DNA of 39,652 nt, taken from positions 1-39,652 of IMG/VR virus record IMGVR_UViG_3300037502_001768. One strand, given 5' to 3'. The stretch is from a virus. Below, in pieces: positions 9,270 to 33,467 of this stretch; the stretch's first letter is position 1, and each line of letters starts with the position of its first letter. The notes under the pieces were generated by a model that did not search any database, had not been told where the DNA came from, and was given only the letters and a program-made list of their open reading frames with translations. The position numbers and the translations under genes were made by a program.

Positions 9270-10208
9270 CTACTTCACCTCTACAGCCTTGGCCTTCCTC
9301 TTCGCCAGCATCTTTGCTCTAAACTCAGGATCTGCCCAACGCTGTTTCAACAATTCTGCCTTCGCTGCGCGAACCTCCGGCGTGTTGTACGCCTTTGAAT
9401 ACTCCCCTGCTTTCTTACGAGCTTCTTCACTCTCGTAATAGGCCCTTGACTTTCTAGAAGCCTCGGCCTTTCGCTCCGGAGTCGATTTCGCGGTCTTAAT
9501 CGCAAGCCTAATACTATCTCCTTTCTGTGTCCATAGTCTTTTTGTGGCTTCGCTCTTACGCGCTTTCTCTTCCGGTCTAGCGTGTGCTTCAGCACGAGAC
9601 GCTGCCTGTTTTGCACGGTATTCCTCGGACTCCCAGTTGGTCCGCATGGCAACGCTGATCTTGTTACGGACTTGCTCGGTGCGACTCTTTAGGATGGCTT
9701 CGCGGAGCTTGGCTCTATGCGCAGGATCAGCACACATCTCCCTGATACGTGCTACACGCTGAGCTTTTATTTCAGGTTTTGCCCAAGCATCACGAGAAAT
9801 TTTGGAAACAATGTTTTTCCATTCTTCCGTTTGCATCTTTTCCCGCCATTTACGCAAACGTTCTTCACTGTATTTAAGGCCAGCAGTGCCTTGCCCACCA
9901 TCAGTAAAGTTGCACAAAGAACCTGTACGTAAATCACGACGCCCATACTGAGCGATCAAGTCACGCTCCATGGCAAACGCTTCTTCTTCGTTGTCCATAT
10001 ACGCAGCAATGGTGATCTGCGGAACAAGACCAGCAACCCGAATCTTGTCCAATACTCTTTGCAAAAACGAATTAACACATCGACGTTCCCAGTGATCACT
10101 GGCGCGGTCGAGATCTACGGTGCCTTTGCCAACGTAGATGGGCTGAAGCCCTTTCCCCGGACGGGGATCAAGATAAACGTACACATAAAACTTACCCGGC
10201 TGCTGCAT
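9270..10208 (-). CDS. GIY-YIG homing endonuclease, free-standing
   Basis: 312 residues. The nuclease domain shows VYVY (9-12) and YVGKG (25-29), the GIY-YIG core, with the catalytic-glutamate candidate E81 in AMERDLIAQYGRR and the conserved NFTDGGQG near 99-106. From about 110 to 312 there is a chain of basic repeats with Trp or Tyr followed by PE(F/I)(R/K)A (WAKPEIKAQR, WADPEFRAKM), like NUMOD3-type DNA-binding modules. It makes a site-specific double-strand break that spreads its own gene. It has its own SD (AGGAAGG) and a promoter candidate and sits just after the capsid gene, unlike its tightly packed neighbours, which marks it as an insertion. Neither flanking gene is visibly interrupted, so it is intergenic rather than intron-borne. 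Confidence 0.9.
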   Translation of the reverse strand: MQQPGKFYVYVYLDPRPGKGLQPIYVGKGTVDLDRASDHWERRCVNSFLQRVLDKIRVAGLVPQITIAAYMDNEEEAFAMERDLIAQYGRRDLRTGSLCNFTDGGQGTAGLKYSEERLRKWREKMQTEEWKNIVSKISRDAWAKPEIKAQRVARIREMCADPAHRAKLREAILKSRTEQVRNKISVAMRTNWESEEYRAKQAASRAEAHARPEEKARKSEATKRLWTQKGDSIRLAIKTAKSTPERKAEASRKSRAYYESEEARKKAGEYSKAYNTPEVRAAKAELLKQRWADPEFRAKMLAKRKAKAVEVK

Positions 10209-14163: not shown

Positions 14164-16695
14164 TTAGGGGTTAATGCCCGTACCTGTTGAAACGTCAACC
14201 TTCTCACCCGTAATCGTTTCCATCGCAGCAATTTGCTTGGCGGTGTCATTGTCTTCACGGTTCGTAACCAACTTAACTTCAAGCTCAGCACGCTGCCGTT
14301 GGTCGAGGCGATCCTGCTTGAGCATTTCGCGCTGCATGTTGACCTGCTGACGAACGGCTCCGTCTTGAACTTCCTTCTGAAGTTTGGCTTGAGCCAATTG
14401 CAGTTCGGCCTGCTTGACCGCGATATTGGCCTGATCGGCCTGAGCTTTGCGCTGCACATCTGCCATCTGAGCGGCGGCACGCGGATCTTGCGGACCCACT
14501 TGCGGCTGAAGCTCTTTGAGCATGTTGAGTGCTTGCGCAACAATCTGCGGCACAGCGCCAAACGCACGCGCTGCATCGGGGACAACCTTCTGGCTCGTCG
14601 CAGCCAAAAGCTGATCGAAGCTCCTTCTGACTTCGACATCGTTGATCTTCTGGAACTCGCTGACATCTCTTTTCGCAGCGTTCGATGCCACTTCAAACAC
14701 ATGGCCCGCATACCAAAGCGCAATGTGCTCTTTGATGTGATCCAAAACAATCGGCATAAACTGCGGGGCCATCAGCATCGAAGAACCCAAGATGGGCGAG
14801 GTCAAATAATCCAAGTGCACCTGCAAGTGCGCAAGGTGATCCTGCTCGGGGAACGCGCTGATCGGACGACCCAAGGTCGCTGCCACGTTCTCGTTAACCG
14901 CATTCATCTCTTGCGGCACTGGCGCGGGGACTAGCAACTCTTTGGGATTCGGAATCCGTAGCTGCTTCAGAATGCGCTCTTCAACCTTACGCAAGTCATA
15001 GATCTGCGGCAAAGCCATCGCACGCTGGGAGACGGCCTGAACCTGAGCGTAACGCTGGGCTTCGGAGAAGATGTTGGGGTCAGAAACCGGCACGACATCC
15101 ATCGGGCCTTCAAAGTCCGAACGCTTAACGAGCAACTCGCCCGTCTCGTCCTTGACCTCTTCGTCTTCCAGATACATCTGATTAAGACGATGCAGCACTT
15201 TGAGCGTACGGCCCATCGCGTCATGCAGTCGCGCATGAATCGCACTGAACACCGCCATGCCCTGCTCAATACGAGCCAACTGAGTACCGACCGGCATGTT
15301 GCCTTGGTTCTCAGAGATATCTTCCAAAGTGGTGCGAACGACGCCCTTACCGGCCTCGACCAAGAAGCCAAGCAGCGACATCAACACCGATGAAGGCTGA
15401 TTGAACGGAATCGGCATCGCGATCTTGCGAATGTCATCGCTAAACGCACCGCCTTCAATCTCTTTCACTTCTGTCGGATCAATGCGCTCGGACTGACCGC
15501 CTTCGCGACCACCCTTGAGCTTGAGCATTCCGGGGAAGTTCGCAATATGCGCCGAGTCCAATAGCGCCCGAAGCGCACCCGTCGCCGCTGCTGAAATACC
15601 ACCGATCATCTGCGGGATACCGATGGGGTACGCACCGCGCCACGGCACAAACGGGAATTCGATGATCCACTGCATCTCTTCCATCGTGTCGTCTTCTTCG
15701 CGCCAGTTGCGATAGATCGACAACACCTTGCCCGTGGACTTATCAACCGAGACGATGTACGGCGCTAGACCATACTTCTCTTCGATATCGGCAATGACGT
15801 AAATCTCAAAGATCGTGCGTAGACCATCAATGTCATACGCGCCACCATCGCGGCCTTCGATCTTGTTGTTCGCCTTCTCCGACTTCGATACATCGGGTTC
15901 AGACGTGGACGGAGCAAGCTCGACATCGCGATACATGCCAGAGCGCACGCGCTGGAGATACTCAATCTCGGTTACGTACTGAACGTGCGTCTTGCGCTCG
16001 GCAGAATAAAAGTTCGTCGCCGCGTAGGGCAGGTAGATGTCATCAATGGCCACATAAAGCGGCATCGGGCGCTTCTTGTTCGCGTCCCAAGAAAGCTTCA
16101 TGTACTGCGCACCGCCAAGCGGTACCTGCGTCAAAAGCTGCTCCAACTCCGCCCGGAACTCGGGCATCTGCTGAGTCAACTGCCAATTGAGATAACGCGT
16201 CTTGCGCTCAGCCTTGGCTACCTTTTCGGCAGTTGGGGTACCAAAGATGTAATCCTTTGCAGGACCCTCAGGAGGGAAAAGCTCTTTGATGGCTCGGGCA
16301 GAGAAATCGACGCAGACCTCTGTGAGCATCGGGTGCACGACTCGACTTGCGCCCTGAAACGAAGCGCCGCCCGGTGCATCATCTCCAAGTCCCGTACGTC
16401 GTATTCCTTCTTCATACTGCTCGTCGCGCTTTTTGCGAGCTTCCTTGTCTTTGTAAATCTGCTGAAGAAGATCCTGAGCGATGTCATCCATCTGCCCTTC
16501 AGGCATCGACTCCGCAAGGTTCGAATAAAACTCTGACTCCGCATCCGGTTCAGATTCCTCTGACCCCAAACGCACAATCGCTCCACCGTCCTCGGTGTCC
16601 TCCACTTCCGCTACCTCATCCTCCGGTAGCAACAACATTTCCCCGAGTTCCTCTTCGGCCTCGCCGGTCATGTCTTCCATCTCTTCAGATGCCAT
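14164..16695 (-). CDS. Portal protein (P22-like)
   Basis: 843 residues from the ATG at 16695. That start has a good SD (GAGGG, 9-nt spacing) and an 11-nt overlap with the end of the terminase gene; a start 10 codons earlier lies inside the terminase frame and is less likely. GASRVVHPMLTEVCVDFSARA, KTRYLNWQLTQQMPEFRAEL and VPLGGAQYMKLSWD are typical of P22-type portals in podovirus-like phages. WIIEFPFVPWRGAYPIGIPQ and NMPVGTQLARIEQGMAV follow. The N terminus is strongly acidic. The last 120 residues form a Gln-rich helical barrel (KQAELQLAQAKLQKEVQDG). The dodecameric portal docks terminase and the tail adaptor. Confidence 0.9.
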   Translation of the reverse strand: MASEEMEDMTGEAEEELGEMLLLPEDEVAEVEDTEDGGAIVRLGSEESEPDAESEFYSNLAESMPEGQMDDIAQDLLQQIYKDKEARKKRDEQYEEGIRRTGLGDDAPGGASFQGASRVVHPMLTEVCVDFSARAIKELFPPEGPAKDYIFGTPTAEKVAKAERKTRYLNWQLTQQMPEFRAELEQLLTQVPLGGAQYMKLSWDANKKRPMPLYVAIDDIYLPYAATNFYSAERKTHVQYVTEIEYLQRVRSGMYRDVELAPSTSEPDVSKSEKANNKIEGRDGGAYDIDGLRTIFEIYVIADIEEKYGLAPYIVSVDKSTGKVLSIYRNWREEDDTMEEMQWIIEFPFVPWRGAYPIGIPQMIGGISAAATGALRALLDSAHIANFPGMLKLKGGREGGQSERIDPTEVKEIEGGAFSDDIRKIAMPIPFNQPSSVLMSLLGFLVEAGKGVVRTTLEDISENQGNMPVGTQLARIEQGMAVFSAIHARLHDAMGRTLKVLHRLNQMYLEDEEVKDETGELLVKRSDFEGPMDVVPVSDPNIFSEAQRYAQVQAVSQRAMALPQIYDLRKVEERILKQLRIPNPKELLVPAPVPQEMNAVNENVAATLGRPISAFPEQDHLAHLQVHLDYLTSPILGSSMLMAPQFMPIVLDHIKEHIALWYAGHVFEVASNAAKRDVSEFQKINDVEVRRSFDQLLAATSQKVVPDAARAFGAVPQIVAQALNMLKELQPQVGPQDPRAAAQMADVQRKAQADQANIAVKQAELQLAQAKLQKEVQDGAVRQQVNMQREMLKQDRLDQRQRAELEVKLVTNREDNDTAKQIAAMETITGEKVDVSTGTGINP

Positions 16696-18196
16696 ACGGG
16701 TTTTCCCTCGGACGAGCGTTAACAATCAGCCTCGGCTGCAACGGCTTAGGCTTACTCACGCTTATCATATCTTTATCGGCAAGGAAACGTAAACCTTGGG
16801 TACAGGCGTCCATCAAGTCATCGTGCTTGATCGTTCCCTCGCCAGAAAACGAACACAATTGATACATCAGCGGTTCAGCCCACGAGCGAACCTGCCCGGG
16901 ACGTTTCTCCGACTCCACAAACCAAATCATCCCACCGGCAAAGAGGTGCGAAACCATGTGAAGACGGGTCAACTTGCTGGCTTTGCCCGGATTGTACGCA
17001 TGGGCGACGATCCCCTCTCGGGTCAGCATCTGCCGAAGCGAAATTCCGCTGCCTTTGTCTTCAATCACGATGGTATCGGGGCGTCTGCCGAAGCCTTGGG
17101 TGCGATTCGGGCCCACTAACGGGCGAATCATGGGGCGCTGTTCCTCGCCGCCGTAGTACACCTCGCGCTCTTTGTGAATCCGCTTGATTAAATCGGGCAT
17201 CCCCAGCCGATCTTCCCAACAATCGAGCAAAATGATGTTCGGTTTCTCGTCTTGGTAGAAAATCCCAAGGACCACACACGCACTCGGGTCCGAATCGGAC
17301 GTTTTCTTGTCGCGAGTCTGCTCCGTGAAGGCCGTATCCAAGCTCATCACGATGTGTTCAATCACCGGCAACGCCTTTTTAGCAGGCCACAACTTGATCC
17401 AGTTGCGCTTGATGATGCCCTGCTCTTCGGGATTGAGTACTTCGGCATGAATTTCCTGCCTTCCAAGCGTCGTGCCCTCAAACTTGAGCAACTGTTGCTG
17501 GAAAGTCGGCGCTAAATTGGCAATGTTTTCGTACGTACTCGCTCTCGTAACGTGCACATCTGCGCCATCACGGCCAATCAAGTCACGAATCAACGCTTTG
17601 GGCTTCGGCGTCGTCGTCGCCACGATCTTTGGGTGCTTTCCCAAGCGCATGCCGAACATGATCATGTCCCATGCTTCTTGATCGTACTGCCACGCTGCTA
17701 ATTCGTCGCACCATCCGCCATGGAACTGCGGTCCACGAAGCCGGTCTGGCGTCTCCGCGCTGATCCCCTTGATCAAAGACCCATTGACCAAGATGATTTC
17801 CGATAAAGATCGGTTGTAATCCCTGATCAAGCCCTCGGGCATCACGCTCACAAGCCCCGAATCTCCCTCAAAACACGTATCACGTACGTCCGCAGAGGTC
17901 GGCGCACTCACAAGCCAACGCGTATTCGGGAAGTTATACGCCCGCCACCACAACCACTCCGCTGCCGCACGCGTTTTACCAGCACCACGACCGGCCAATA
18001 ACAACCACACGGTCCAATCGCCCTTCGGGGGAACCTGATGCTTGTGCCGATTCTGCGTCCAATCCACCCGCTTATCTAAAACCCGAAGCTCCGTAAGACT
18101 GAGCTTATTAAGCTCCGCGATAACTTTCGGATCTACGTTCGGCGGAATGTTCGGCTGCGGCGTAGCCGGTGGGGGTTGTGGCGTCTTCTTGCTCAT
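16685..18196 (-). CDS. Terminase large subunit
   Basis: 503 residues. ATPase domain: Walker A GRGAGKT (69-75), Walker B followed by the catalytic acid in GWCDELAAW (D164, E165) and the coupling motif ATTTPKP (193-199). The RNase H-like nuclease begins at HIVMSLDTAF (D287) and includes TIVIEDKGSG near 380 as the second acidic site. A proline-rich N terminus (PQPPPATPQPN) precedes the motor. It packages DNA into the procapsid through the portal and cuts genome concatemers. TAATG overlap with the upstream DUF5872-like gene and overlap with portal show tight coupling. Its small-subunit partner is at 20711-21250, separated by a rightward cassette. Confidence 0.95.
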   Translation of the reverse strand: MSKKTPQPPPATPQPNIPPNVDPKVIAELNKLSLTELRVLDKRVDWTQNRHKHQVPPKGDWTVWLLLAGRGAGKTRAAAEWLWWRAYNFPNTRWLVSAPTSADVRDTCFEGDSGLVSVMPEGLIRDYNRSLSEIILVNGSLIKGISAETPDRLRGPQFHGGWCDELAAWQYDQEAWDMIMFGMRLGKHPKIVATTTPKPKALIRDLIGRDGADVHVTRASTYENIANLAPTFQQQLLKFEGTTLGRQEIHAEVLNPEEQGIIKRNWIKLWPAKKALPVIEHIVMSLDTAFTEQTRDKKTSDSDPSACVVLGIFYQDEKPNIILLDCWEDRLGMPDLIKRIHKEREVYYGGEEQRPMIRPLVGPNRTQGFGRRPDTIVIEDKGSGISLRQMLTREGIVAHAYNPGKASKLTRLHMVSHLFAGGMIWFVESEKRPGQVRSWAEPLMYQLCSFSGEGTIKHDDLMDACTQGLRFLADKDMISVSKPKPLQPRLIVNARPRENPYGI

Positions 18197-18435: not shown

Positions 18436-18618
18436 TTAGTCCTTGTAAGAGCCGCCACGGGCTTTATATTCTTTGGCTAGAAGCTGTGCTTTACGCCCGC
18501 TCCATTGCCCCGCTGCCGTGCCGTGCGTAGCTTTAGCCTTGATCTGATTGAAGAGCTTCTTGCGCATCTCGGGTTTCGTGTAATTGCCCGCTGCGTTTAC
18601 CTTAGATTTCGTCGCCAT
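18436..18618 (-). CDS. Small basic conserved phage protein
   Basis: 60 residues from the ATG at 18618, chosen because GGAG lies 8 nt upstream; a start three codons earlier is a TTG-type alternative. The chain SKVNAAGNYTKPEMRKKLFN ... QWSGRKAQLLAKEYKARGGS is a recurring small basic phage family (KxGNYTKP and GxWSxRKAQxLAKxYK pattern). Function is unknown; it is often found near DUF5872-like and terminase genes, as here. It overlaps the end of the upstream gene by 17 nt. Confidence 0.7.
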   Translation of the reverse strand: MATKSKVNAAGNYTKPEMRKKLFNQIKAKATHGTAAGQWSGRKAQLLAKEYKARGGSYKD

Positions 18619-19156
18619 GGTCAACACTCCAAATGTCAGTTTGACGCTTTAATCTCGGCCAGTTGGACTCCGTAATGAACGATTTGTCCTGCACGAGAAG
18701 ATGATTCGTAGGTTGCGCCGTAAAGCGCCCGTTGTCCAGTTTGATAAAGTAAAACTCTTTCCCCTGCTCAGGCTCCGCGCTAAATCCATCGAGCATCGGA
18801 ATCGCGGTAAACATGTACGTCCCTGTGCACTCCAGCTTAGACCGTAGCCGCGTCTTGATACGGGTCCCTTCGAGAAACGGATACTCCAGCACACTGAAGT
18901 GAATGCCGTAGCAATCCCATGTTTGTCCGTCGGCGGGGTCCCAGCGTGTTTGAGTGGGAGAATGCGCAAGTTTGTGCAACGGCACGTTCCGATACACCGC
19001 CCCACATTCGAGCATCACATGGCATCCCCAAGTGCGACCGGGGTGACTCACTAGCCCAAACCACGCTACCCGTAGCCAGTCGTCGTTGCCGAATGTGTGG
19101 GGCTGCACGTAGCAGTACGTATGTCGGGGGAGGGGGCCAGCGCCGGTATAAAGCAT
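18602..19156 (-). CDS. Conserved phage protein, first gene of the main late operon
   Basis: 184 residues, not assigned to a family. It is rich in aromatic residues and Cys/His (HTFGNDDWLRVAWFGLVSHP, WGCHVMLECGAVYRNVPLHK, TWDCYGIHF, CTGTYMFTAIP), suggesting a compact, possibly metal-binding fold. It is the 5'-most gene of the leftward operon that continues through terminase to the fibres. There is no Shine-Dalgarno before the ATG. Instead a promoter-like -10 ends 6 nt before it (see the promoter entry), so this gene may be translated from a leaderless mRNA. Confidence 0.65.
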   Translation of the reverse strand: MLYTGAGPLPRHTYCYVQPHTFGNDDWLRVAWFGLVSHPGRTWGCHVMLECGAVYRNVPLHKLAHSPTQTRWDPADGQTWDCYGIHFSVLEYPFLEGTRIKTRLRSKLECTGTYMFTAIPMLDGFSAEPEQGKEFYFIKLDNGRFTAQPTNHLLVQDKSFITESNWPRLKRQTDIWSVDHGDEI

Positions 19157-19422: not shown

Positions 19423-19451
19423 ATCATTACACAACCGGATTGCGTAGTCAA
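19423..19451 (-). promoter_or_regulatory. Second leftward sigma70-like promoter
   Basis: Minus strand: TTGACT at 19451-19446, 17-nt spacer, AATGAT at 19428-19423 (or TAATGA with a 16-nt spacer). It faces the late operon and would give a long, A-tract-rich leader before the gene at 19156. Confidence 0.5.
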
Positions 19452-19502: not shown

Positions 19503-19531
19503 TTGACATACTCAACCTGCTTGCGTTAATC
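19503..19531 (+). promoter_or_regulatory. Sigma70-like promoter of the rightward cassette
   Basis: TTGACA at 19503-19508, a 17-nt spacer and TTAATC at 19526-19531, about 40 nt before the ATG of the GP88-like gene. The -35 is a perfect consensus, in keeping with a moron expressed independently of the phage programme. Confidence 0.6.
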
Positions 19532-19570
19532 TTTGCCCGTCCGATAACTAATAACTTAGGAAATAGCACA

Positions 19571-20218
19571 ATGATCCGTATATCAGTAACTAGCAAACTT
19601 GACGGTGTTCGCTCATGGTCGTTAGTCGCTCGCGAGACATGTCCGGGCGCAATTAATCGCGACGGTTCATTAGTTCCCGCATGTGCCGGATGTTATGCCG
19701 TTGGCGGTAACTACCGTTATCCAAATGTACGCGGACCACGCGTAGAGAATCGCGAAGACTGGCAGCGCCCGGAATGGGTCGCCGATATGGTCGCCGAATT
19801 ACAGAATGACAGATTTTTCCGTTGGTTCGACTCCGGCGATATGTACGCAATCGCACTGGCCGAAAAGATATACGCGGTAATGGTCGCGACTCCATGGGTG
19901 CGCCATTGGTTGCCTACGCGTATGCATAAGTTTTCAAAATTTGCGGATGTGCTTTCGCGCATGCAATCGTTACCGAACGTCATGGTGCGCCCGTCGTCCG
20001 ACTCTGTAACAGGCGAATACGTCGCCGGGGTGCATGGTTCTACAATCGTGCCGTCAATTGATGCCGTGCCGAATGGCGCTACGTTATGCCATGCCGCTAA
20101 CAATGGTGGAAAGTGTGGACCGTGCCGCGCCTGTTACTCGAAGGATGTGGCCGTCGTCGCCTATGTGGCGCATGGTCGGAGCATGTCAAAAGTAGTTCGC
20201 GAACAGTTAGCAGCCTAA
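19571..20218 (+). CDS. GP88-like protein
   Basis: 215 residues. CPGAINRDGSLVPACAGCYA (24-43), then YPNVRGPRVENR, WFDSGDMYAIALAEKIYAVM, HWLPTRMHKF and the C-terminal cysteine cluster LCHAANNGGKCGPCRACYS resemble the mycobacteriophage gene-88-type family (CPG...CYA near the N terminus, SGD in the middle, terminal Cys cluster). Function of that family is unknown to me; the cysteines suggest a metal site. It has its own promoter and is first of three rightward genes placed between the terminase genes. Family assignment is from memory of the pattern and only moderately sure. Confidence 0.55.
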   Translation: MIRISVTSKLDGVRSWSLVARETCPGAINRDGSLVPACAGCYAVGGNYRYPNVRGPRVENREDWQRPEWVADMVAELQNDRFFRWFDSGDMYAIALAEKIYAVMVATPWVRHWLPTRMHKFSKFADVLSRMQSLPNVMVRPSSDSVTGEYVAGVHGSTIVPSIDAVPNGATLCHAANNGGKCGPCRACYSKDVAVVAYVAHGRSMSKVVREQLAA

Positions 20219-20230
20219 TAGGGGAATCAA

Positions 20231-20461
20231 ATGGGAATCACCATACGCAAAGTACGCGCAGGAAATTGGTACACGTTCTCGCCGGTAGGCATGGACCTAT
20301 ACGACCCAAAAACCACGCTAACGTCAGGCGATATCGTGCAAGTAAAACGTGCGCCCGGATGCCCGCCACCGAACACAATGGGACATTGTCACGTGTACGA
20401 CGTAGCCGGAAAATTTCGCGGATTAGTTCTAACCAATAGCCTACAGAGGGAAAGCACATGA
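20231..20461 (+). CDS. Small cassette protein, unknown function
   Basis: 76 residues, preceded by an SD (AGGGGA, 6 nt). KVRAGNWYTFSPVGMDLYDP ... SGDIVQVKRAPGCPPPNTMG ... HCHVYDVAGKFRGLV reads as a small beta barrel (SH3/KOW-like strand rhythm: GDIVQVKRAPG, HVYDVAGKFRGLV). No family recognised. Its TGA overlaps the next ATG, so the cassette is an operon. Confidence 0.6.
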   Translation: MGITIRKVRAGNWYTFSPVGMDLYDPKTTLTSGDIVQVKRAPGCPPPNTMGHCHVYDVAGKFRGLVLTNSLQREST

Positions 20462-20661
20462 TCACGTTCCGTCAATTCCGTAGCCTAGTGAGTGCCGAGG
20501 TATCTCGCCTGTCTGGCCTGTCTCTCGCCTGTCTCCCGGATGTGGACCTATCGGATTACTACGACGAGGAATACACGCTAGACGAGGCGCAAGATGCCGC
20601 AAAAGAAGCAGCGCACATGGCGCTCCTCGAAGAAGGATTCTCGGCGGACCTACTGACCTAG
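20458..20661 (+). CDS. Small acidic cassette protein
   Basis: 67 residues. The N-terminal half (FRQFRSLVSAEVSRLSGLSL) is basic-amphipathic and the C-terminal half strongly acidic (DVDLSDYYDEEYTLDEAQDA), which could mimic DNA or act as an inhibitor, but that is speculation. GCCTGTCT appears three times in the DNA between about 20505 and 20535, a short internal direct repeat. ATGA overlap with the previous gene; terminator 25 nt downstream. Confidence 0.6.
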   Translation: MITFRQFRSLVSAEVSRLSGLSLACLPDVDLSDYYDEEYTLDEAQDAAKEAAHMALLEEGFSADLLT

Positions 20662-20685
20662 TCGGACATAACAGGGTGCTATTTT

Positions 20686-20712
20686 GGGGGTGCTAGTCAC
20701 CCCCCTTTTTTT
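20686..20712 (+). terminator. Rho-independent terminator of the cassette
   Basis: GGGGGTG (20686-20692) pairs with CACCCCC (20698-20704) around CTAGT, followed by seven T residues. The T-run runs into the stop codon of the convergent small-terminase gene. In the minus direction there is no U-tract, so leftward transcription from the small terminase is not terminated by it. Confidence 0.9.
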
Positions 20713-21250
20713 ATTCCACTTCGTGCGCTTCGCCGTCGATCGTAATGCCGTGCGCGAGTCGTCCCGCTAGTTTGCTCACTACCTCAGTACGTTGCGCGAT
20801 TTCAATCGGGCCACCGTTCGCGCCGGTTAGTTCGACCGCGTTGCGTTCCGTGAACTTTCCCCCGCCTCTCGTTTTGAGCAAAAAGATTGCAGCGGTATCG
20901 CTTCCCGCCTTGGCACGTTGAGCGAGGGAACCGGCAATCTCGGAGACCATGTTCGATTGACCGTTCTTGAATTCGTAATCGTAATGCTCACGGACGGTCG
21001 ATTCGGATATGCGGAGCGCGTTACACACCATGTCCATGGTGAAGCCGGAGAACGACATCGTTGCGACGCTTTGCGCGATCATCGCATCGGGATGCTTACG
21101 ATTATCGTTTTTGGGAGATACAGCCCTAGTGGTGTAGTTCGCTACAACACCCTCTTTCGCATTTAAATCGTTTTTTAGCGGTTCAACCACTACCCCGCTA
21201 CCTACCCCGCTCCCCTGCTCTGTCGTCGCCTCTGGCGCTTTCTCTGTCAC
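20711..21250 (-). CDS. Terminase small subunit-like HTH protein
   Basis: 179 residues from a GTG at 21250 supported by GGAG 9 nt upstream. The N-terminal 50 residues are disordered. GFTMDMVCNALRISESTVRE (74-93) is a helix-turn-helix. AQRAKAGSDTAAIFLLKTRG followed by GGKFTER and VELTGANGGPIEI match the C-terminal part of small terminases and terminase-associated HTH proteins (a lone small-molecule-like LKTRGGW...E(V/L)TGxxGGPI pattern). It would recognise the packaging site and stimulate the large subunit. It is co-oriented with the large subunit but separated from it by the rightward cassette. An HTH regulator of another kind is the main alternative. Confidence 0.75.
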   Translation of the reverse strand: MTEKAPEATTEQGSGVGSGVVVEPLKNDLNAKEGVVANYTTRAVSPKNDNRKHPDAMIAQSVATMSFSGFTMDMVCNALRISESTVREHYDYEFKNGQSNMVSEIAGSLAQRAKAGSDTAAIFLLKTRGGGKFTERNAVELTGANGGPIEIAQRTEVVSKLAGRLAHGITIDGEAHEVE

Positions 21251-21785
21251 GTTTACGCGCTCCTTTGCTTAGCCCGTAGCCTATGGGGGATAAACCCCGC
21301 CCAAGTCGGGCCGATTCTAGCCCGTTCCTAATTTTTCAATTATTGCATAAGACCCAAAGGAAGAAAAGAACAAGCGTAAGTGACTGATTCTAAAGGAAAG
21401 ATATATTTTTTTCATTTATTTATTTCTTACTTCTATCCGCTCTTGTTAAAAGTTTTCCTCTTACCTTGCTACGCTTTCCTGTCTGTCTGTGGCTGAACCC
21501 CTAAGAAAGAATGAAATAAATGCAGGGATCAAGTTTAGCATTCAAAAAATCATTTAAAAATTAACAAGTTAAGACAGCAAACATCGTCCCTTTAAATTAC
21601 TTAACTCAAGCGAATTAGTGCATTTAATTCATAAGAAAAAAGCCCAAAACCGGCTCAATTTACCGACTCAAATAACACTCTCAAAATTAAAGGTATAAAA
21701 TATTTGAACTCTCTAAATTTGAGAGTACTATTCACATGGGCGAATACCCACCTAATCCACTTTTAGGCTACGGAGGATTTAAACG
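21251..21785. other. AT-rich non-coding region, candidate origin / control region
   Basis: No gene. It is visibly richer in A+T than the flanks and lies between leftward and rightward transcription. ACTCTCAAA (21677-21685) and TTTGAGAGT (21718-21726) form an inverted repeat, and ACTCTC (21708-21713) with GAGAGT (21721-21726) a second, overlapping hairpin around TAAATTT. A TATAAA box lies at 21694-21699 between them, without a good -35. CTATTCACA near 21729 is one base off a relaxed DnaA box. TTTAAA occurs at 21553, 21591 and 21778. A leading strand origin or early-promoter operator are both possible. Confidence 0.5.
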
Positions 21786-22135: not shown

Positions 22136-22164
22136 TTGACTCATGCAAGCGGCTTGCGTAGGAT
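22136..22164 (+). promoter_or_regulatory. Sigma70-like promoter
   Basis: TTGACT at 22136-22141, 17-nt spacer, TAGGAT at 22159-22164, about 37 nt before the ATG of the next gene. The spacer ends in GGCTTGCG directly before the -10, a feature shared with the cassette promoter at 19503. Confidence 0.6.
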
Positions 22165-23846: not shown

Positions 23847-24215
23847 CTACGACAAGTGTTTTAACTTGTAGAGCGCACTCAGGTAATGCGAAACGATCTC
23901 ATCAATGATGTTTTGGATGGCGGTTTCTTCGGGGGGACAAAAGTCATACCGGCCCTTCCCGATTCGCTCGACCTGATCTTCCAAAAACTCAACGAGGTTT
24001 CGGTTCTTCTCAGCAGACATGAGCGACACCGGACCCATGAGACCGTGCCGACCCTGCCAAGCCTCTGCAAAGTTATCCGCGAGTTCGGGCAGTCCCTCGT
24101 AAAACTTCTGGGTCGCTTTGTGAACCGCGTACGAGGACGTATTTAAATGCACCGAATGGGCAACGTCTCGTGCCAAGAAAAGGAGGCCAACGAAATCGGC
24201 GGCTTTCATGCTCAT
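23847..24215 (-). CDS. DUF5856-like helical protein, opposite strand
   Basis: 122 residues from the ATG at 24215. HLNTSSYAVHKATQKFYEGL and PELADNFAEAWQGRHGLMGP match my memory of DUF5856, a ferritin-like four-helix family in T4-like and other phages; H, E and Y positions fit a ferritin-type bundle (HxN, AxHKAxxxFY, LADxFAEAxQGRxG). It is the only leftward gene in the early region and carries its own divergent promoter. A TTG 24 nt upstream lies between the -35 and -10 boxes and is unlikely; an ATG two codons later is possible. There is no SD, and the -10 ends 6 nt before the ATG. Confidence 0.7.
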   Translation of the reverse strand: MSMKAADFVGLLFLARDVAHSVHLNTSSYAVHKATQKFYEGLPELADNFAEAWQGRHGLMGPVSLMSAEKNRNLVEFLEDQVERIGKGRYDFCPPEETAIQNIIDEIVSHYLSALYKLKHLS

Positions 24216-24221
24216 GGGTCT

Positions 24222-24250
24222 AGCGTAACCGTGAGGCAACGATTTTTCAA
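24222..24250 (-). promoter_or_regulatory. Leaderless-type promoter of the DUF5856-like gene
   Basis: Minus strand: TTGAAA at 24250-24245, a 17-nt spacer, TACGCT at 24227-24222, then six bases (AGACCC) and ATG at 24215. Transcription would start at or near the A of the start codon. The geometry matches the promoter before 19156. Confidence 0.55.
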
Positions 24251-25617: not shown

Positions 25618-25826
25618 AGATCGAAATCGACGTTGATATTGCAGAGCAGGTTACGGCTGTTGAACTCGCTCGAACGATGGCGAACTTGGTAGATGACTAC
25701 GAGAAGCGCAAGGCCGGAGCAGGGATAAGCATCTTTTACAAGAACAAGACCGAAGATCTAGCCGAAATCAAGCGCCACATCGACGCATTTAAATTGGTGG
25801 GGTTGTACTACGGGGTGAAGTTGTGA
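25614..25826 (+). CDS. Conserved small phage protein
   Basis: 70 residues from ATG 25614, overlapping the previous stop. MKIEIDVDIAEQVTAVELAR, then NLVDDYEKRKAGAGISIFYK and EIKRHIDAFKLVGLYYGVKL. The pattern ...LVDDYEKR...DKTEDLAEIKRHIDAFKLV..YYG is one I recall from several phage genomes, always without a function. Acidic strand at the N terminus, then helices. GTGA overlap with the methyltransferase gene. Confidence 0.65.
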   Translation: MKIEIDVDIAEQVTAVELARTMANLVDDYEKRKAGAGISIFYKNKTEDLAEIKRHIDAFKLVGLYYGVKL

Positions 25827-26530
25827 TCGATCCCAAAGCCCGTGGTGGTGTGCGCCGCTACTTGGACACCGTGAAGCCTGAGGAATACCTACCGGCAACG
25901 GGCGAGGTCAACCTTGGCGAACTGTCATTGACCGGCCTTGCGGATTTATTCGGCAGCGACAAGGGCAATATCAAGCACCGATACACGAAAGTGTACGAGC
26001 CGCTGATTCAAAAGATTTGTGAGGAGCAAGGGGACAATCGCAAGACCGCGCAGTTACACATTGCCGAAGCCGGTGTAGCGTGTGGCGCATCACTCCACAT
26101 GTGGTCGCATTACCTTCCTGACAGCGTAATCATTGGCTACGACGTACGTCCTGAGTGCGCCGAGTTGTGTCAAGACTTGGACAACGTGCGGATTGTGATT
26201 GGCGATCCGGCCAAGATGGGCGAACCGGACGACGCGCCGTTTGACGTGTTCATTGATGACGCGAGTCACATTTCTGAGCAGATTGTCGAGATGTTCAGAA
26301 ACTGCTGGCCATGGGTGCGCAGTGGCGGCTACTACGTCATTGAGGATCTGGGCTGCACCTACAGCGACGCGTACACCGAGCAGTTCCGCAAGCACTTTGA
26401 TACGAACGCTTTAAATTACCGGGCTACGTTTGTGCGAATGGTCGATCACTTGATGAAGTGTGTGGACACGCACAGCGAGATTGCCGAGATGAATTACTAC
26501 CCGCAGCTTTTGGTACTGAGGAAATTATGA
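25823..26530 (+). CDS. MycE-type sugar O-methyltransferase-like protein
   Basis: 235 residues from GTG 25823. LADLFGSDKGNIKHRYTKVY (39-58), AEAGVACGASLHMW (81-94; motif I), IIGYDVRPEC (103-112; ribose-binding D107), IVIGDPAK and FDVFIDDASH (140-149; metal/catalytic acids), then GGYYVIEDLGCTYSD. The order and spacing fit the MycE/macrocin-type family whose known members O-methylate sugars in a metal-dependent way. Next to glycosyltransferases this suggests it caps a glycan. GTGA and ATGA overlaps on both sides. The family is a confident pattern match; the substrate is inferred. Confidence 0.7.
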   Translation: MIDPKARGGVRRYLDTVKPEEYLPATGEVNLGELSLTGLADLFGSDKGNIKHRYTKVYEPLIQKICEEQGDNRKTAQLHIAEAGVACGASLHMWSHYLPDSVIIGYDVRPECAELCQDLDNVRIVIGDPAKMGEPDDAPFDVFIDDASHISEQIVEMFRNCWPWVRSGGYYVIEDLGCTYSDAYTEQFRKHFDTNALNYRATFVRMVDHLMKCVDTHSEIAEMNYYPQLLVLRKL

Positions 26531-26844
26531 GCGAGAGCCTGACTCCAACTGAATTTGATTTCATGTCGAAGCCTGAGAACAAAGAGGCCGAGTACGTGTG
26601 GTGCAAGATCAGCCCACAGGGTGGCTTGGAACTCTTTGACTGGGAGTTCGTTGAAAAGACGGCGCGTGAGTTTGACGCGATGGGTGAGGTAGCGCAGAAG
26701 AGCAACGCGCACATCATTTGCAAACTTGCCGTACTGATCCGTGAGCAGACGCTACTTCGGGCAGCGGAGGCCATCAAGCGCTATGCCGAGGTTCCCGCAG
26801 AGGCGACGGTCATTATGCTCAAAGACCCCTTGGAGGACGCATGA
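26527..26844 (+). CDS. Cassette protein, unknown function
   Basis: 105 residues from ATG 26527 (the open frame extends upstream into the methyltransferase but the ATGA overlap marks the start). SKPENKEAEYVWCKISPQGG, LELFDWEFVEKTAREFDAMG, then helical IICKLAVLIREQTLLRAAEA. No family recognised. Overlaps the first GT gene as ATGA and lies between a methyltransferase and a glycosyltransferase, so it probably belongs to the same pathway or simply to the operon. Confidence 0.6.
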   Translation: MSESLTPTEFDFMSKPENKEAEYVWCKISPQGGLELFDWEFVEKTAREFDAMGEVAQKSNAHIICKLAVLIREQTLLRAAEAIKRYAEVPAEATVIMLKDPLEDA

Positions 26845-27515
26845 GCCTGTTCGTGTTCTTTCATGTCGGTGCTGACATCTCGATGCCGACGAAGATGGTG
26901 AGTTCGCTCAAGGCCGTGATGCCGGATGCGGAAGTGGTGATGTGTACCGACGAGGCAACACCTGAAGTCCCGGGTGTGAGCTTGTTTAAACGCAGCCAAG
27001 GCAACTACGAGCAGTTGATGTACTGGCGTATGCGTGCGTTTGCCGAAGCTCGGATTACGCGCCCTGCCATGTACATTGATACGGACATGCTCTTTGTTTT
27101 GCCTGTTAACCCGGCTGCGATTCTGGGCGATAAGGAAGTGATCTTTTGTCGCCGTTCGTTTGATCGGGACGCGGGGTTCAACGGGGAGCAGCGCGATGGG
27201 ATCTTCAAGAAGTACCACGGCATCCCCTTGGGGACGCTTTACCCCTACCTTGGTTGTGCGACCGTGACCAAGAACTATCATGCGTGGAAAGCCATGGCGC
27301 TACTGATGGGGTTCATGGACCAAAACTTGCGCTCGTGGTACGGCGATCAAGAAGCCCTCAAGGTGTACTCGCACATGCTGTACCCGGAATTGGTGGGCGA
27401 GATGGAAGAGTTGGATTACGCGTGTCTGCCCGACAAGGCACCGGATGGGCATGTTCCTCACATTCTTCATTACAAAGGGGCAGCGCGTAAAAAACTATTT
27501 GAGGAGGCGTTATGA
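26841..27515 (+). CDS. GT-A glycosyltransferase-like protein 1
   Basis: 224 residues. The opening FVFFHVGADISMPTKMVSSL is followed by VVMCTDEATPEV, then RMRAFAEARITRPAMYIDTD with the DxD motif at 80-82 (metal and nucleotide-sugar binding), and FCRRSFDRDAGF. Late residues AVTKNYHAWKAM-like, WYGDQEALKVYSHM (a GDQ acceptor/catalytic loop typical of GT8 and related GT-A enzymes) and HILHYKGAARKKL fit the C-terminal HYxGxxKP-like motif of that fold. It transfers a sugar from a nucleotide donor. ATGA-coupled on both sides. Confidence 0.75.
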   Translation: MSLFVFFHVGADISMPTKMVSSLKAVMPDAEVVMCTDEATPEVPGVSLFKRSQGNYEQLMYWRMRAFAEARITRPAMYIDTDMLFVLPVNPAAILGDKEVIFCRRSFDRDAGFNGEQRDGIFKKYHGIPLGTLYPYLGCATVTKNYHAWKAMALLMGFMDQNLRSWYGDQEALKVYSHMLYPELVGEMEELDYACLPDKAPDGHVPHILHYKGAARKKLFEEAL

Positions 27516-27745
27516 ATGTTGCAGATAAGATTGGTCAATTGATTGAGCGGTTAGTCATGTTGGTCTTTGTGCTGACTGGGCTTTCCGTTGCCTTGGCGCT
27601 CAACTACGTGATGTGGAAGGGGTTAGTAAACTCCGACTTCTCGAATGTTCAAGAGCTTCGGCTTGTCGTGACTGCTCAGCAAGAGAAGATCAGCAAGATG
27701 GAGCAGGAAATTCAGTTTCTCGTCAGAGCCGAGGAAGTAGAGTAA
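27512..27745 (+). CDS. Membrane-anchored coiled-coil protein
   Basis: 77 residues. IERLVMLVFVLTGLSVALAL (11-30) is one transmembrane helix, and residues 45-77 (VQELRLVVTAQQEKISKMEQ) form a coiled coil ending in acid residues. Placed between two glycosyltransferase genes and coupled to the first, it may scaffold them at the inner membrane. Spanin- or Rz-like function is the alternative, but no lysin or partner is near. Confidence 0.6.
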   Translation: MNVADKIGQLIERLVMLVFVLTGLSVALALNYVMWKGLVNSDFSNVQELRLVVTAQQEKISKMEQEIQFLVRAEEVE

Positions 27746-27747
27746 TT

Positions 27748-28416
27748 ATGAAGGTATTCATTGGTTGGGACTCTCGTGAAGACATCGCCTATCAAGTGGC
27801 GCGAAAGTCCATGGAGTTACATTCATCCATCTCGCTCGACATCACTCCGATAAAGCAAAGTGATCTGCGCGAGCAGGGTATTTATTGGCGTGGGGTCGAT
27901 CCGTTCTCTTCGACGGAGTTCAGCTTCACGCGGTTTCTGACTCCATACCTCGCGGGGTATTCCGGCTGGGCCTTGTTTTGCGACTGCGATTTTCTTTTCC
28001 GGGGGGACATCGCGACTTTGCTTGACTACGCCGACGGGGCAAAAGCGTGCTTCGTGGTACCGCACGACTACCGGCCTACCGAATCGGTCAAAATGGATAA
28101 CAAGGCGCAACATCAATATCCTCGTAAGAACTGGTCGAGCTTTATGCTCATCAACTGTGAGCATGAACAAGTTAAGAAGCTCACGCCAGAACTGGTCAAC
28201 GTGGCGACGGGCATGTATCTTCACAGGTTTGAGTGGCTGACGGACGATGTGATCGGTCATCTGCCGATTGCGTACAACTACTTGGAAGGGTGGTACACCC
28301 GCAATGAGTGTCCGAACCCGATTGCCGTACACATGACCCGTGGGGGTCCGTGGTTCAACGACTGGACGCACGTAGAGTATGGCCGTGAGTGGATGGCTGT
28401 GGCGGCTACGATATGA
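27748..28416 (+). CDS. GT-A glycosyltransferase-like protein 2
   Basis: 222 residues from ATG 27748; the open frame runs upstream through the previous gene but lacks coding character there. MKVFIGWDSREDIAYQVARK is a common opening of GT8-like phage and bacterial glycosyltransferases. SGWALFCDCDFLFRGDIATL carries the DxD motif at 79-81, RKNWSSFMLINCEHEQVKKL is the acceptor strand, and EGWYTRNECPNPIAVHMTRG holds the HxTxGGPW donor-site loop. Overlaps the TPR-GT gene as ATGA. Confidence 0.75.
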   Translation: MKVFIGWDSREDIAYQVARKSMELHSSISLDITPIKQSDLREQGIYWRGVDPFSSTEFSFTRFLTPYLAGYSGWALFCDCDFLFRGDIATLLDYADGAKACFVVPHDYRPTESVKMDNKAQHQYPRKNWSSFMLINCEHEQVKKLTPELVNVATGMYLHRFEWLTDDVIGHLPIAYNYLEGWYTRNECPNPIAVHMTRGGPWFNDWTHVEYGREWMAVAATI

Positions 28417-29816
28417 GCAAGTACGCCAAGGTCATCAAGCAGATTGAGTCTGCTTTCCAAGCCAAGAAGTACAACGAGGCTTTGGATCTGTGCAACTACG
28501 CCATCTCGCTGAGCCCCAAGGACATTGTGCCGTATCGGGCCAAGGCTCGGCTCTTGCAGATTACCCGTGAGTTTGCCGAGGCCGAGAAGTATTACAACGC
28601 GGCTGAGAAGCGTGGCGCATTGACAGCGGATGATTTGGTTAACCGTGGCATCGTCAAGGGTGAGCAGCAGAAGTACCTTCAAGCCATTGAGGACTTCAAC
28701 AAGGCACTCGCTTTAAATCCGAAATATTTACATGCGCTGATTCAACGAGGGGCGTCTCAGTGGGAGATGCGTCTTTGGGATGAAGCGTACGAGAGCTTTA
28801 AATTGGCTAATGAAATCTCGCCTGATGATCCGAACGCGAACTGGATCTTGGGGTTGCTCGCCTTGCAGCGTAATGACTTCAAGACCGGCTGGCCGATGTA
28901 CGAGCGACGGTGGAAGAGCGAGCGGTTCAAGAGCAGACCTCTGGTCACGCAGAAGCCGCAGTGGATTCCGAACTCGGTGCTGAAGTCCGTATTGGTGTGG
29001 GGCGAACAGGGCGTCGGCGATCAGATCATTTATGCGTCGTTGTTACCGGCTGTGCGTAAGAGTGCTGACCGGGTGACGGCGATGATGGACCCGCGCTTGT
29101 TGAGCTTATTTAAACGCTCCATGCCGGACATTGATTTCGTGTCGCACTTGGACCCGATTCCCTCCGAGATGCACGACTCGCAGATTCCTTTTGCAAGCTT
29201 GGGCGGGTGTTTCATTGAGACGCTGGACGATTTAAACGCTCATGCTGCGAGGGCGTATTTGAAAGCCGACCCGGAGCTAATCGAGAAGTACCGTGCTGAG
29301 ACGGGCTTCACAAAGGATAAGCTGACGGTGGGCGTTACATGGGCTTCGAGCGCCATCAAGATTGGGCCGCACAAGTCGATCCGTATTGAGGAGATGAAAC
29401 CCTTCCTAAAGAACGACTATCAGGTTTTAAATCTGCAATATGGCAGCAGTAAGGAAGCGGTGGACAAGTTTAACCAAGACTTTGGTGCGAACATCGTGAC
29501 GACTTCGGCCAATCTGTGGAAAGACTTTGAATCCGTGGCGGCGTTATGCGCCATGTGTGATGTGATTGTATCGGTGAGCAGTTCGACCGTTCATCTTGCC
29601 GGTGCCTTAGGGGTGCCGGTGCTTTTGATGGATGCCAACAAGCTGTGGTACTGGGGAAACAAGAACGGTGACAACAGCGCGTGGTATCCGAGCGTCAAGA
29701 TTTTTCATCGAGAGAACATGCTTGCTCCGTGGGATAAGGTTGTGGAAGCAGTAACCAACGAGCTGGGGAGAATTGAACATGATCGACGATGTGAGCGAAC
29801 CGGGATCTTGGGATAA
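28413..29816 (+). CDS. TPR - GT-B glycosyltransferase fusion
   Basis: 467 residues from ATG 28413. Residues 5-150 are four or so TPR repeats (KYNEALDLCNYAISLSPKD, YLQAIEDFNKALALNPKY, LWDEAYESFKLANEISPDDP). WPMYERRWKSERF links to a GT-B part: VWGEQGVGDQI (195-205), VGVTWASSAIKIGPHKSIRI and SVSSSTVHLAGALGVPVLLM (387-406) with YWGNKNGDNSAWYP, as in GT9/GT41-like enzymes where TPRs bind the acceptor protein. Known relatives include O-GlcNAc transferase-like and heptosyltransferase-type protein glycosylation enzymes. So a protein acceptor is plausible, but LPS glycosylation is the alternative. The C terminus overlaps the next gene. Confidence 0.75.
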   Translation: MSKYAKVIKQIESAFQAKKYNEALDLCNYAISLSPKDIVPYRAKARLLQITREFAEAEKYYNAAEKRGALTADDLVNRGIVKGEQQKYLQAIEDFNKALALNPKYLHALIQRGASQWEMRLWDEAYESFKLANEISPDDPNANWILGLLALQRNDFKTGWPMYERRWKSERFKSRPLVTQKPQWIPNSVLKSVLVWGEQGVGDQIIYASLLPAVRKSADRVTAMMDPRLLSLFKRSMPDIDFVSHLDPIPSEMHDSQIPFASLGGCFIETLDDLNAHAARAYLKADPELIEKYRAETGFTKDKLTVGVTWASSAIKIGPHKSIRIEEMKPFLKNDYQVLNLQYGSSKEAVDKFNQDFGANIVTTSANLWKDFESVAALCAMCDVIVSVSSSTVHLAGALGVPVLLMDANKLWYWGNKNGDNSAWYPSVKIFHRENMLAPWDKVVEAVTNELGRIEHDRRCERTGILG

Positions 29817-30399: not shown

Positions 30400-30439
30400 C
30401 CCCGGAGTTGAGTGGTTAGTCTCCTCCGGGGATTTTTTT
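30400..30439 (+). terminator. Rho-independent terminator of the early accessory operon
   Basis: CCCCGGAG (30400-30407) pairs with CTCCGGGG (30424-30431) around a 16-nt loop and is followed by A and seven T residues. The T-run overlaps the stop of the convergent primase gene. No equal U-tract exists in the leftward direction. Confidence 0.9.
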
Positions 30440-32681
30440 ACCTACGCGCTTTGTACACCCTGCGGCTACGGCCCGGTCCATCTTTCGAGATGACCTCTTC
30501 CATGACATCGCCTGACTCCAGCAGGGTCTGAAGAATCTCGTTTCGGTCGCGGGCTTTCATACCCTGTAGGGCTTTAGCCAACTGCGTGGTGCTGGCACCT
30601 TCGTCGCCTTGCTTGCGGATGAAGTTAAGCACGCGCTTGTGAGAGGCTTCGATATCGTTCTCCGAGACTTCCTTCTGCATAAGCTCTGCTGTGTAGAAGA
30701 ACGACCAGCGCACAAGATCCATAGCCATCTTGAAGATTTCGATGCTGACGGTAGGCGAGATGGGGTCAAGCGCAATGGCTTCGATCATCGCAATCTTGAC
30801 GATCATTTCGCTGTAGCGGACCCACAAGGCTTCGTCGTTGCGCGACTGTTTGATCTGCCATTCCTTGACGCGCTGATATTCCTCAAACGCGGGGCCTTCC
30901 CACTTGACGATCATGGGTACAACAGCCGAGTTCGGAATCGTGGGCTGATTCGTTAAGTTACCGATGCCTGCGGGGGTCACGGTATACGAATCCATGATGT
31001 CCTTCACGATGTCTTCAGGGGGCAATGAGTCCTGAGAGGGCATCTGTGAGTCGGGGTAATCATCGAACGGCGGTATCAGCAAGATACGGCTCAGTGTACC
31101 GTTATCCACCATGTCGAAGTTCAGCGCCGGAATCAGCGTGCGCGGGGTGGTGGTGCCGAAGAAGTTGAAGTTCGGCTGGTTGATGTCGAGCCGCTGCCGG
31201 TCGCGTGAGTCGGCGTATTCCTGACCGTGATAGATACCGCTGCTGCTGGAGTACACCTCAAGCAACGTCTTGATGATGTCACGCTGGTGACTTGCGGCGT
31301 TCTTGGCGGTCAAGCTCTGAAGGTACAAGCCCATTTCGTCAAGGTGCGAGATACGCGACGGGTAGTCGTACAGTGTTCGCAGAATGGCCACGCCTGACGA
31401 AAAGCGGTCGCCGCAAATGAGTTGATGCAAACCCGCATTGATCATCAGTTCTTTGATGCGCTGACGGCTGTGGTCTTTACCGGCACCGGGCTTGGCTACA
31501 CCAATCGCAAAGACATTGCAGCGCGTGTTGAGATGCTCCATGGCGTACCGTCGCCCGAAGATCGCACCGAACATGACGAGCGTGTTGGCAAGTGCAAACG
31601 TGGGCTGGGGTTGCTGGGCTGAGGCAATGATCCAGCGCGTGACGCGACCGACCAATGAGCGGCTTTCAAACCACTGTGTGGGAAAGTTCTCACGCGTGCT
31701 CTTCGGAATGCGCTTGGGTTCTTTGATGTTGGTGAGATCCACCTTGACCGACTTGATTGGATTTAAATCCAAGTGTACGGGTGGAACCCAACCGTTCTTC
31801 TGCGCCAAGAAGTACAAAGACCCGGCTCCGATGCGCGACGGCGGGGACTTGCTGTAGTGCTCCCATCGCTGCGTGGTTTCGAGTTGGTTGTACTTGCCGG
31901 ACTCTCGTGACCACTGGTCAAAGATGTGAAAACCTTTGGCTTCGGTGGCGCAATAGATCGCCATGCCGATACGGTTCCAGTCATCCCAAGATAGATCCGG
32001 GTTCGGAACAAACTTGAGCGAATCTTCAACGGCAGCGAGCGTGCCCACGAGGCCCTCGTACGAAGTCTTTGCGTCCTTGTCTGGGATAACCGTGGAGACA
32101 AGACGGGTGCGCCTCAGATTCGGCGGTAAAGTCTTATACGCTTCCTCTGCCGCAGCCAGTACTTGCTCACGAGTGACGAGCGGCAATGCGCTGACTGGAG
32201 TCTCAGCCGGATTCTCAAGTGGCCAGCGGTACGGCTGTCCTGTTTCCGGGTGAATCGAGTAGGCCACGAACTGCTGCCCAACGCCGAGGACTTCAATCGG
32301 ATGGAGCGAGATCTTGGTGAACGGCTCCAGTGTGCGATAGAGATAAAGCGCCTTCGGGGACTTGCCGATACGAATGAGATCAGTCTGCCCAAGCTTTTCT
32401 TGGAAGACCTTTCCAACCGCAATGGCAACACTCTCATCCAGTATGTCGATATCAATGGCGACGACTTCACCTGTAATGATGCCGATGCCACACGGTGCCC
32501 AACTGGACCAGATATCAACGTGGGTCTGCTCTGCGTGAACTTCGGTCCAGCGAGCAAGATCGCCCCAGCCTCTACCTTCGTCGTATCGCCCCGGCCTTTT
32601 GGTTCCCGGCGCAATTGGGATGATGCGATAACCCGCGTCAACGAGCTTCGCACCATACTGCTGCATGAAATGGTCAGACAT
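30438..32681 (-). CDS. Primase-polymerase / DUF3987-like helicase
   Basis: 747 residues from ATG 32681 (16 codons of upstream open frame overlap the RusA gene and have no SD). N-terminal primase-polymerase: AIDIDI (75-80) supplies the catalytic DxD, RIGKSPKALYLYR (104-116) and FVAYSIHPETGQPYRW the remaining active-site strands. Residues 231-298 (SWDDWNRIGMAIYC ... GSLYFLAQKNGW) are a PriCT-type linker. Walker A GVAKPGAGKDHS (394-405), ISHLDEMGLYLQ as Walker B-like and GTTTPRTLIPAL follow in a DUF3987-like ATPase. A C-terminal winged helix (KRVLNFIRKQGDEGASTTQL) ends it. It primes and unwinds at the fork. The window has no family A or B DNA polymerase. Confidence 0.85.
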   Translation of the reverse strand: MSDHFMQQYGAKLVDAGYRIIPIAPGTKRPGRYDEGRGWGDLARWTEVHAEQTHVDIWSSWAPCGIGIITGEVVAIDIDILDESVAIAVGKVFQEKLGQTDLIRIGKSPKALYLYRTLEPFTKISLHPIEVLGVGQQFVAYSIHPETGQPYRWPLENPAETPVSALPLVTREQVLAAAEEAYKTLPPNLRRTRLVSTVIPDKDAKTSYEGLVGTLAAVEDSLKFVPNPDLSWDDWNRIGMAIYCATEAKGFHIFDQWSRESGKYNQLETTQRWEHYSKSPPSRIGAGSLYFLAQKNGWVPPVHLDLNPIKSVKVDLTNIKEPKRIPKSTRENFPTQWFESRSLVGRVTRWIIASAQQPQPTFALANTLVMFGAIFGRRYAMEHLNTRCNVFAIGVAKPGAGKDHSRQRIKELMINAGLHQLICGDRFSSGVAILRTLYDYPSRISHLDEMGLYLQSLTAKNAASHQRDIIKTLLEVYSSSSGIYHGQEYADSRDRQRLDINQPNFNFFGTTTPRTLIPALNFDMVDNGTLSRILLIPPFDDYPDSQMPSQDSLPPEDIVKDIMDSYTVTPAGIGNLTNQPTIPNSAVVPMIVKWEGPAFEEYQRVKEWQIKQSRNDEALWVRYSEMIVKIAMIEAIALDPISPTVSIEIFKMAMDLVRWSFFYTAELMQKEVSENDIEASHKRVLNFIRKQGDEGASTTQLAKALQGMKARDRNEILQTLLESGDVMEEVISKDGPGRSRRVYKARR

Positions 32682-33051
32682 TTTCGACTTTAACCTCAAC
32701 CCGTTCTTCGCCGTATTCTTTGGAGGCAACGAGTTGGCACACGGTCGCGTCGTCGCTGAACACCGTGCCGTTTAAACCGTCCAAGATTGCCTTGACGATG
32801 TTGTCAAGATCTGGACGAGAAATGTGCCACCCCGTTTTGGTCTTATGTTGAAAGTACGCTTTGATCGTAACTCTCACTGGACCTTCTAACATGTCCTTCC
32901 CGAACATGGCAACTTGAGCAAGCGTCGTAACGCCCTGCTCGTACAATTTTGTTTCTCGTGGTGTGTATGTTGTCACACCGCCGCTCTTGGTGCGGCCAAA
33001 CCGTGGGCGTGCTTTACCCACAGGTTTTCCATAGATTACTAACTCAATCAT
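32674..33051 (-). CDS. rusA: RusA-type Holliday junction resolvase
   Basis: 125 residues, near the usual 120. GKPVGKARPRFGR (8-20), TTYTPRETKLYE (27-38), then the catalytic core HISRPDLDNIVKAILDGLNG (76-95; D81 and D83 with N84), VFSDDATVCQLVASKEYG (97-114; D100/D101, K111). It cleaves four-way junctions arising in replication and recombination so that DNA can be packaged. Start overlaps the HTH regulator stop (ATGA); its end overlaps the primase start. Confidence 0.9.
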   Translation of the reverse strand: MIELVIYGKPVGKARPRFGRTKSGGVTTYTPRETKLYEQGVTTLAQVAMFGKDMLEGPVRVTIKAYFQHKTKTGWHISRPDLDNIVKAILDGLNGTVFSDDATVCQLVASKEYGEERVEVKVENV

Positions 33052-33404: not shown

Positions 33405-33420
33405 TTGGCCTCCTAGAATG

Positions 33421-33467
33421 GTGACATCATGCCACCGCTTGCAATCTGTCACAAGGGGGTGTATCTT
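33421..33467. promoter_or_regulatory. Overlapping divergent promoters with palindromic operator
   Basis: Rightward: TTGCAA (33439-33444), 17 nt, TATCTT (33462-33467). Leftward: TTGTGA (33454-33449), 17 nt, CATGAT (33431-33426). The two -35 boxes overlap each other's spacer. Inverted half-sites GTGACA (33421-33426) and TGTCAC (33447-33452), 20 bases apart, coincide with the leftward -10 and -35 edges and with the rightward spacer. A dimeric HTH protein bound here could switch between primase and recombination operons. Confidence 0.6.

Follow-up and report, generated by a model that had tools for sequence, protein, structure and literature searches.

A candidate early cargo slot beside the phage small terminase gene, filled in all relatives surveyed and probably exchanged by recombination

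The window, meaning here the whole stretch of DNA that was analysed, corresponds to a 39,652-base virus record (IMG/VR IMGVR_UViG_3300037502_001768). A cassette of three rightward open reading frames lies at 19503-20712 between leftward flanks, with the TerL-side genes on its left and TerS on its right, and the interval from TerL to the cassette is occupied by three small leftward genes encoding 78, 63 and 184 amino acids. The features of the region are listed below.

16685 to 18196, minus strand: TerL, large terminase subunit (Terminase_6N, 8.3e-26)
18602 to 19156, minus strand: g184 (phrog_3704), which in most relatives borders the slot on its left
19423 to 19451, minus strand: leftward promoter-like site that shares the palindrome of the 19503 promoter (TTGACT-ACG-CAATCCGGTTG-TGT-AATGAT), facing the g184-TerL-portal genes; the sole leftward copy among the sites found
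19503 to 19532, plus strand: rightward promoter, TTGACA, spacer with palindrome CAACCTGCTTG (CAAGCnGCTTG type) and weak -10 GTTAAT/TAATCT
19571 to 20218, plus strand: GP88 family protein (PF17338), 215 aa, with seven invariant cysteines (24, 38, 41, 173, 182, 185 and 188)
20231 to 20461, plus strand: P76, 76 aa, small and beta-rich, predicted SH3-like barrel; relatives adjoin GP88 genes in unrelated phages
20458 to 20661, plus strand: P67, 67 aa, small and acidic; relatives in the slot, and after GP88 in L013, a contig with a distant TerL
20686 to 20711, plus strand: rightward intrinsic terminator, GGGGGTGCTAGTCACCCCC then T7, ending at the TerS stop
20711 to 21250, minus strand: TerS, small terminase subunit, the right border of the slot (phrog_309, E 3.7e-7)
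22136 to 22164, plus strand: promoter of the class seen at 19503, upstream of the early gene at 22201, with a perfect palindrome CAAGCGGCTTG and -10 TAGGAT

A preliminary description of this DNA had reported three rightward genes separating the leftward TerS from the leftward TerL block, and this layout was borne out by the open reading frame coordinates and by the TerL and TerS profile matches. The ATG of P67 overlaps the stop codon of P76. Between relatives, dN/dS was approximately 0.04 to 0.13 for GP88, P76 and P67, indicating purifying selection, and thus all three were taken to be real genes. Rfam and tRNA scans gave no match. The g184 gene belongs to a family named 'ferredoxin' in PHROGs, a label that looks doubtful, and Pfam gave no match for it. 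On the other side of the slot, an AT-rich gap (21251-21785, 36.8% G+C) separates TerS from the rightward early genes and is a candidate origin or packaging-site region.

The 19503 promoter has a perfect -35 (TTGACA) and a weak -10, read either as GTTAAT at 16 nt or as TAATCT at 18 nt, and it was absent from the list of a stock sigma-70 scan, whose rules this -10 fails. The pattern CAANCNGGNTTG was dropped, being of the wrong length and matching below chance, and a pattern combining the -35 with CAA-N5-TTG was used instead. In this form, TTGAC-N3-7-CAA-N5-TTG was found 37 times in 32 contigs of the window family (326 kb), among which near-duplicate contigs inflate the count; Markov shuffles predict 1.05 occurrences, with a maximum of 3 in 20 shuffles. 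Thirty-one of the 37 sites lay 30-150 bases upstream of an ATG open reading frame, and all but one were rightward. Such sites stand in front of the lead genes of the slot and also of further rightward genes past TerS. Within the window they are 19503(+), 22136(+) and the lone leftward site at 19451. Since the -35 and its spacer palindrome recur across relatives far above chance, the 19503 promoter was accepted despite its weak -10. The consensus promoter claimed earlier thus stands as a recurrent promoter with a perfect -35, and falls short of a full consensus.

Because this promoter class is common to other rightward genes, the cassette can be tied to the rightward programme of the phage, which we infer from gene order to be 'early'. 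The leftward site at 19451 shows that the class is not strictly 'early'. The shared palindrome hints at one regulator for the rightward promoters of the phage. Two leftward regulator genes were noted as possible binders of CAAGCnGCTTG, namely a phrog_858 'starvation-inducible transcriptional regulator' (23847-24239) and a Cro/CI-type HTH gene (33048-33452); a palindrome was looked for beside the latter and none was seen. The leader downstream of the promoter is also conserved, with CGATAACTAA...AGCACA kept ahead of different lead genes in relatives, and its last 33 bases, CGTCCGATAACTAATAACTTAGGAAATAGCACA, are identical between the window and the relative L096 though their lead genes differ. 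Behind the cassette, the terminator described previously is present, and a GC-rich hairpin with a T-run recurs at the same position in most relatives; the scan alone is not significant, with six terminator-like sites in the region and 4.1 +/- 1.9 in shuffled sequence.

Relatives were gathered with GP88, TerL, TerS, P76 and P67 as queries and are metagenome contigs, some of them near-identical. An unbiased set was defined as those contigs found via TerL or TerS only, outside the slot, in which the slot was seen whole (n=18). None of the 18 had an empty slot. The main slot gene was a short GP88 in four, a long GP88 in seven, DUF7227 in two, ArdC in three and another gene in two, giving a lead gene of the GP88 superfamily in 13 of the 18. 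When contigs found through slot genes were added, a biased enlargement, approximately 31 slots including that of the window were available and none was empty. The idea that the cassette is an insertion into a terminase pair left uninterrupted in relatives was therefore not upheld. The preliminary description had set the presence of the cassette at this site in all relatives against its own moron reading; the slot is indeed filled in all of them, and what fills it is not the same cassette. It had coupled this with expression on the phage schedule only, to which the shared promoter class points.

The exchange of lead genes was assessed with a 24-row TerL tree. Lead-gene type required at least 12 changes on it; shuffled labels averaged 13.3, and 50 of 200 shuffles were as low. 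Slot content thus fails to track the phage backbone, as the 12 changes are about what shuffled labels give. Cargo swaps while TerL keeps 80-89% identity, and well-supported near pairs differ in lead gene, as in L165 (ArdC) and L170 (long GP88), or L101 (long GP88) and L102 (other). The window and L096 share P76 at 95% and P67 at 88%, yet the GP88 lead gene of each comes from a different subfamily. The order of P76 and P67 is reversed in L008 and L101. GP88 at 82-84% identity is also found in phages whose TerL is approximately 29% identical or unmatched, where it lies beside P67 (L013) or ArdC (L014-L016). Within the same contigs, TerS (20711-21250) is 38-83% identical, compared with 80-89% for TerL and 73-88% for portal, as if TerS were being exchanged or diversifying along with the slot. 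In L108-L113 the TerL matches fall in two pieces roughly 0.4-1 kb apart, a split that points to an intron or an inserted element.

Elsewhere in the window, recombination genes for a Sak4-like annealing protein and a Cas4-type exonuclease are present at 33937-36212, and an SSB is also encoded. A primase-polymerase protein (30438-32729) has a C-terminal end that matches a z-alpha domain model over the cut-off (E 8.4e-5). Methyltransferase-like, unknown and TPR/glycosyltransferase-9-like genes stand in a row at 25823-29816 and are perhaps a sugar- or surface-modifying module, and a homing-endonuclease-like gene (phrog_314) lies amid the leftward structural genes at 9270-10208.

P76 and P67 had been thought to have no recognised relatives; both recur in the slot, and P76 is also found in distant phages. 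The P76 model (pLDDT 81) is predicted to be an SH3-like barrel, with a Foldseek probability of approximately 1.0 but an E of 0.02, and VIA as its best match (Z 6.9). Relatives of P76 adjoin GP88 genes in L230 and L232 and lie approximately 3 kb from GP88 in the 371-kb record L229, while five of the eight distant P76 records are without GP88, a count to be read with the caution that records may be fragments. Relatives of P67 were found only in slots of the window type and in L013.

GP88 genes are widespread in viruses, one viral scan yielding at least about 600 candidate stretches, whereas the subfamily of the window was found at only three loci in 84,980 bacterial and archaeal species genomes. 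In unrelated phages GP88 often sits at the junction of leftward TerL/TerS with rightward genes, and among 47 loci with enough upstream sequence it lies just right of leftward TerL in 31 and of leftward TerS in 30. In Roseobacter phage CRP-4 it opens the early arm; it lies between TerL and TerS in Pelagibacter phage HTVC027P, and is followed by an annotated antirestriction gene in MW202796. ArdC is found beside GP88 in L002, L014, L015 and L016, that is, in four of the GP88 loci surveyed for context, and most GP88 relatives have no ArdC nearby.

We consider it probable that the slot is an always-filled early cargo slot swapped by recombination; the most likely task of its cargo is host takeover or counter-defence. 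The slot at 19503-20712 would form part of the rightward, early-type programme, lying on the strand opposite to that of its neighbours, the TerL-side late genes and TerS. The conserved leader and terminator flanks may be where homologous recombination swaps the genes, perhaps driven by the Sak4-type annealing protein and Cas4-type exonuclease of the phage. The cargo would act early; in this phage it would comprise a putative metal- or Fe-S-cluster enzyme (GP88), a possible SH3-fold partner (P76) and an acidic accessory protein (P67). Early transcripts that might otherwise read antisense through TerS would be ended by the terminator, as fits the convergent layout. Counter-defence or takeover is the likeliest role because ArdC is the alternative cargo, and it is likelier than defence because PADLOC models gave no match to GP88, P76 or P67 up to E 1 and the GP88 subfamily is nearly confined to viruses. 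The host-interaction or defence/anti-defence unit proposed earlier is thus plausible on its anti-defence and host-interaction side, and its defence side is not supported. The recurrent promoter and terminator mark a place in which to seek further counter-defence or takeover genes.

An alternative is that the cassette is an early metabolic or nucleotide/RNA-modifying module. On this view GP88, as a radical-SAM-like enzyme or another Fe-S enzyme, would have a metabolite, tRNA or DNA as its substrate and would play no direct part against defence systems. The window GP88 matched PF17338 at 93.9 bits (E 1.8e-26), above the Pfam gathering cut-off of 24.4 bits, and its AlphaFold model had a pLDDT of 88.8. 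The first three of its seven invariant cysteines (24, 38 and 41) form C-x13-C-x2-C just after the predicted strand 14-16 (strand 1), which is the right location for the radical SAM motif, but the spacing is other than the classic CX3CX2C. The top structural rows included the radical SAM chains EpeE (Z 5.0), ChlB, NifB, MiaB and BlsE at Z 4.1-5.0, with none at Z 8, and values below 8 may reflect a shared barrel arrangement only. Foldseek gave no solved structure at E <= 0.001 and a PDB sequence search gave no significant match. The Pfam GP88 model matched two DUF5131 proteins over the cut-off (1e-7 and 5e-7) and cross-matches DUF7227; a profile comparison of GP88 with DUF5131 returned a probability of 15% from an alignment that was too shallow, the HMM cross-match being the stronger. 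From these models a radical-SAM-like barrel in GP88 is possible, if weakly supported. Viral structure matches included GP88 proteins of uncultured phages and of a Nitrosopumilus spindle-shaped virus, and the latter occurrence also favours a metabolic role. However, ArdC takes the place of GP88 in this slot in some relatives, a substitution more in keeping with conflict than with metabolism, and we regard the metabolic module as unlikely, if deserving of serious thought.

A classical moron would be an autonomously transcribed insertion, expressed outside the lytic schedule, that serves the host cell or superinfection exclusion. Like the morons of lambdoid and Mu-like phages, for example the P22 pid moron (PMC3573128 and PMC4378225, the sources for the definition of the form), the slot is a small opposite-strand unit in the late region with its own promoter and terminator and with other inserts in relatives, and the window carries the Cro/CI-type HTH gene mentioned above. 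Unlike them, it is always occupied and its base composition is not atypical (53.8% G+C in the cassette, 53.1% in the window and 54.8% in TerL). The cassette may be expressed independently from its own promoter and terminator, as originally implied, but this view is weakened in that the promoter is not private, its class also preceding other rightward genes. No integrase was found among the window proteins scanned, and the GP88 subfamily is nearly absent from bacterial genomes. The moron reading therefore keeps its strand, its signals and its alternative inserts while losing the empty site and the foreign composition, and we hold it to be distinctly improbable.

That the genes are kept in place by working with TerS/TerL or the packaging site is very improbable, since the position next to TerS, the nearness to leftward TerL/TerS in many GP88 phages and the arrangement in HTVC027P are outweighed by the opposite strand, the promoter class of other rightward genes, the free exchange of cargo over a conserved TerL and the place of GP88 in the early arm of CRP-4.

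Within the preferred reading of an exchanged early cargo slot, a bolder version can be offered as speculation and is rather unlikely as a whole: GP88/DUF7227 proteins with the SH3-fold P76 might be widespread, virus-specific cysteine-cluster (perhaps radical-SAM-like) counter-defence enzymes, interchangeable with ArdC, in a regulated slot of virulent phages served by an early promoter with the phage's own operator.

The slot may be compared with the anti-phage hotspots of P2 phages and P4 satellites (PMC9122126), which are likewise short, lie between two conserved phage genes and show high gene turnover. Those hotspots are features of temperate elements and house defence systems, whereas no defence family turned up here, and the cargo recognised so far consists of the anti-restriction gene ArdC and GP88-superfamily genes. 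A search for literature on GP88, PF17338, DUF7227 or DUF5131 with phage found no relevant paper. The families GP88 (PF17338), DUF7227 (PF23872) and DUF5131 (PF07505) are uncharacterised; they cross-match and have a CxxCYA-type motif in common, and their link to radical SAM enzymes is suggestive only. The ArdC anti-restriction proteins (ArdC-N plus MPTase; PMC5512222) are not homologous to GP88 and are absent from the slot of the window, but they provide the main gene of the same slot in three relatives and stand beside GP88 in others, and the fact that GP88 alternates with a gene of known anti-restriction function is a direct clue to its role that can be tested.
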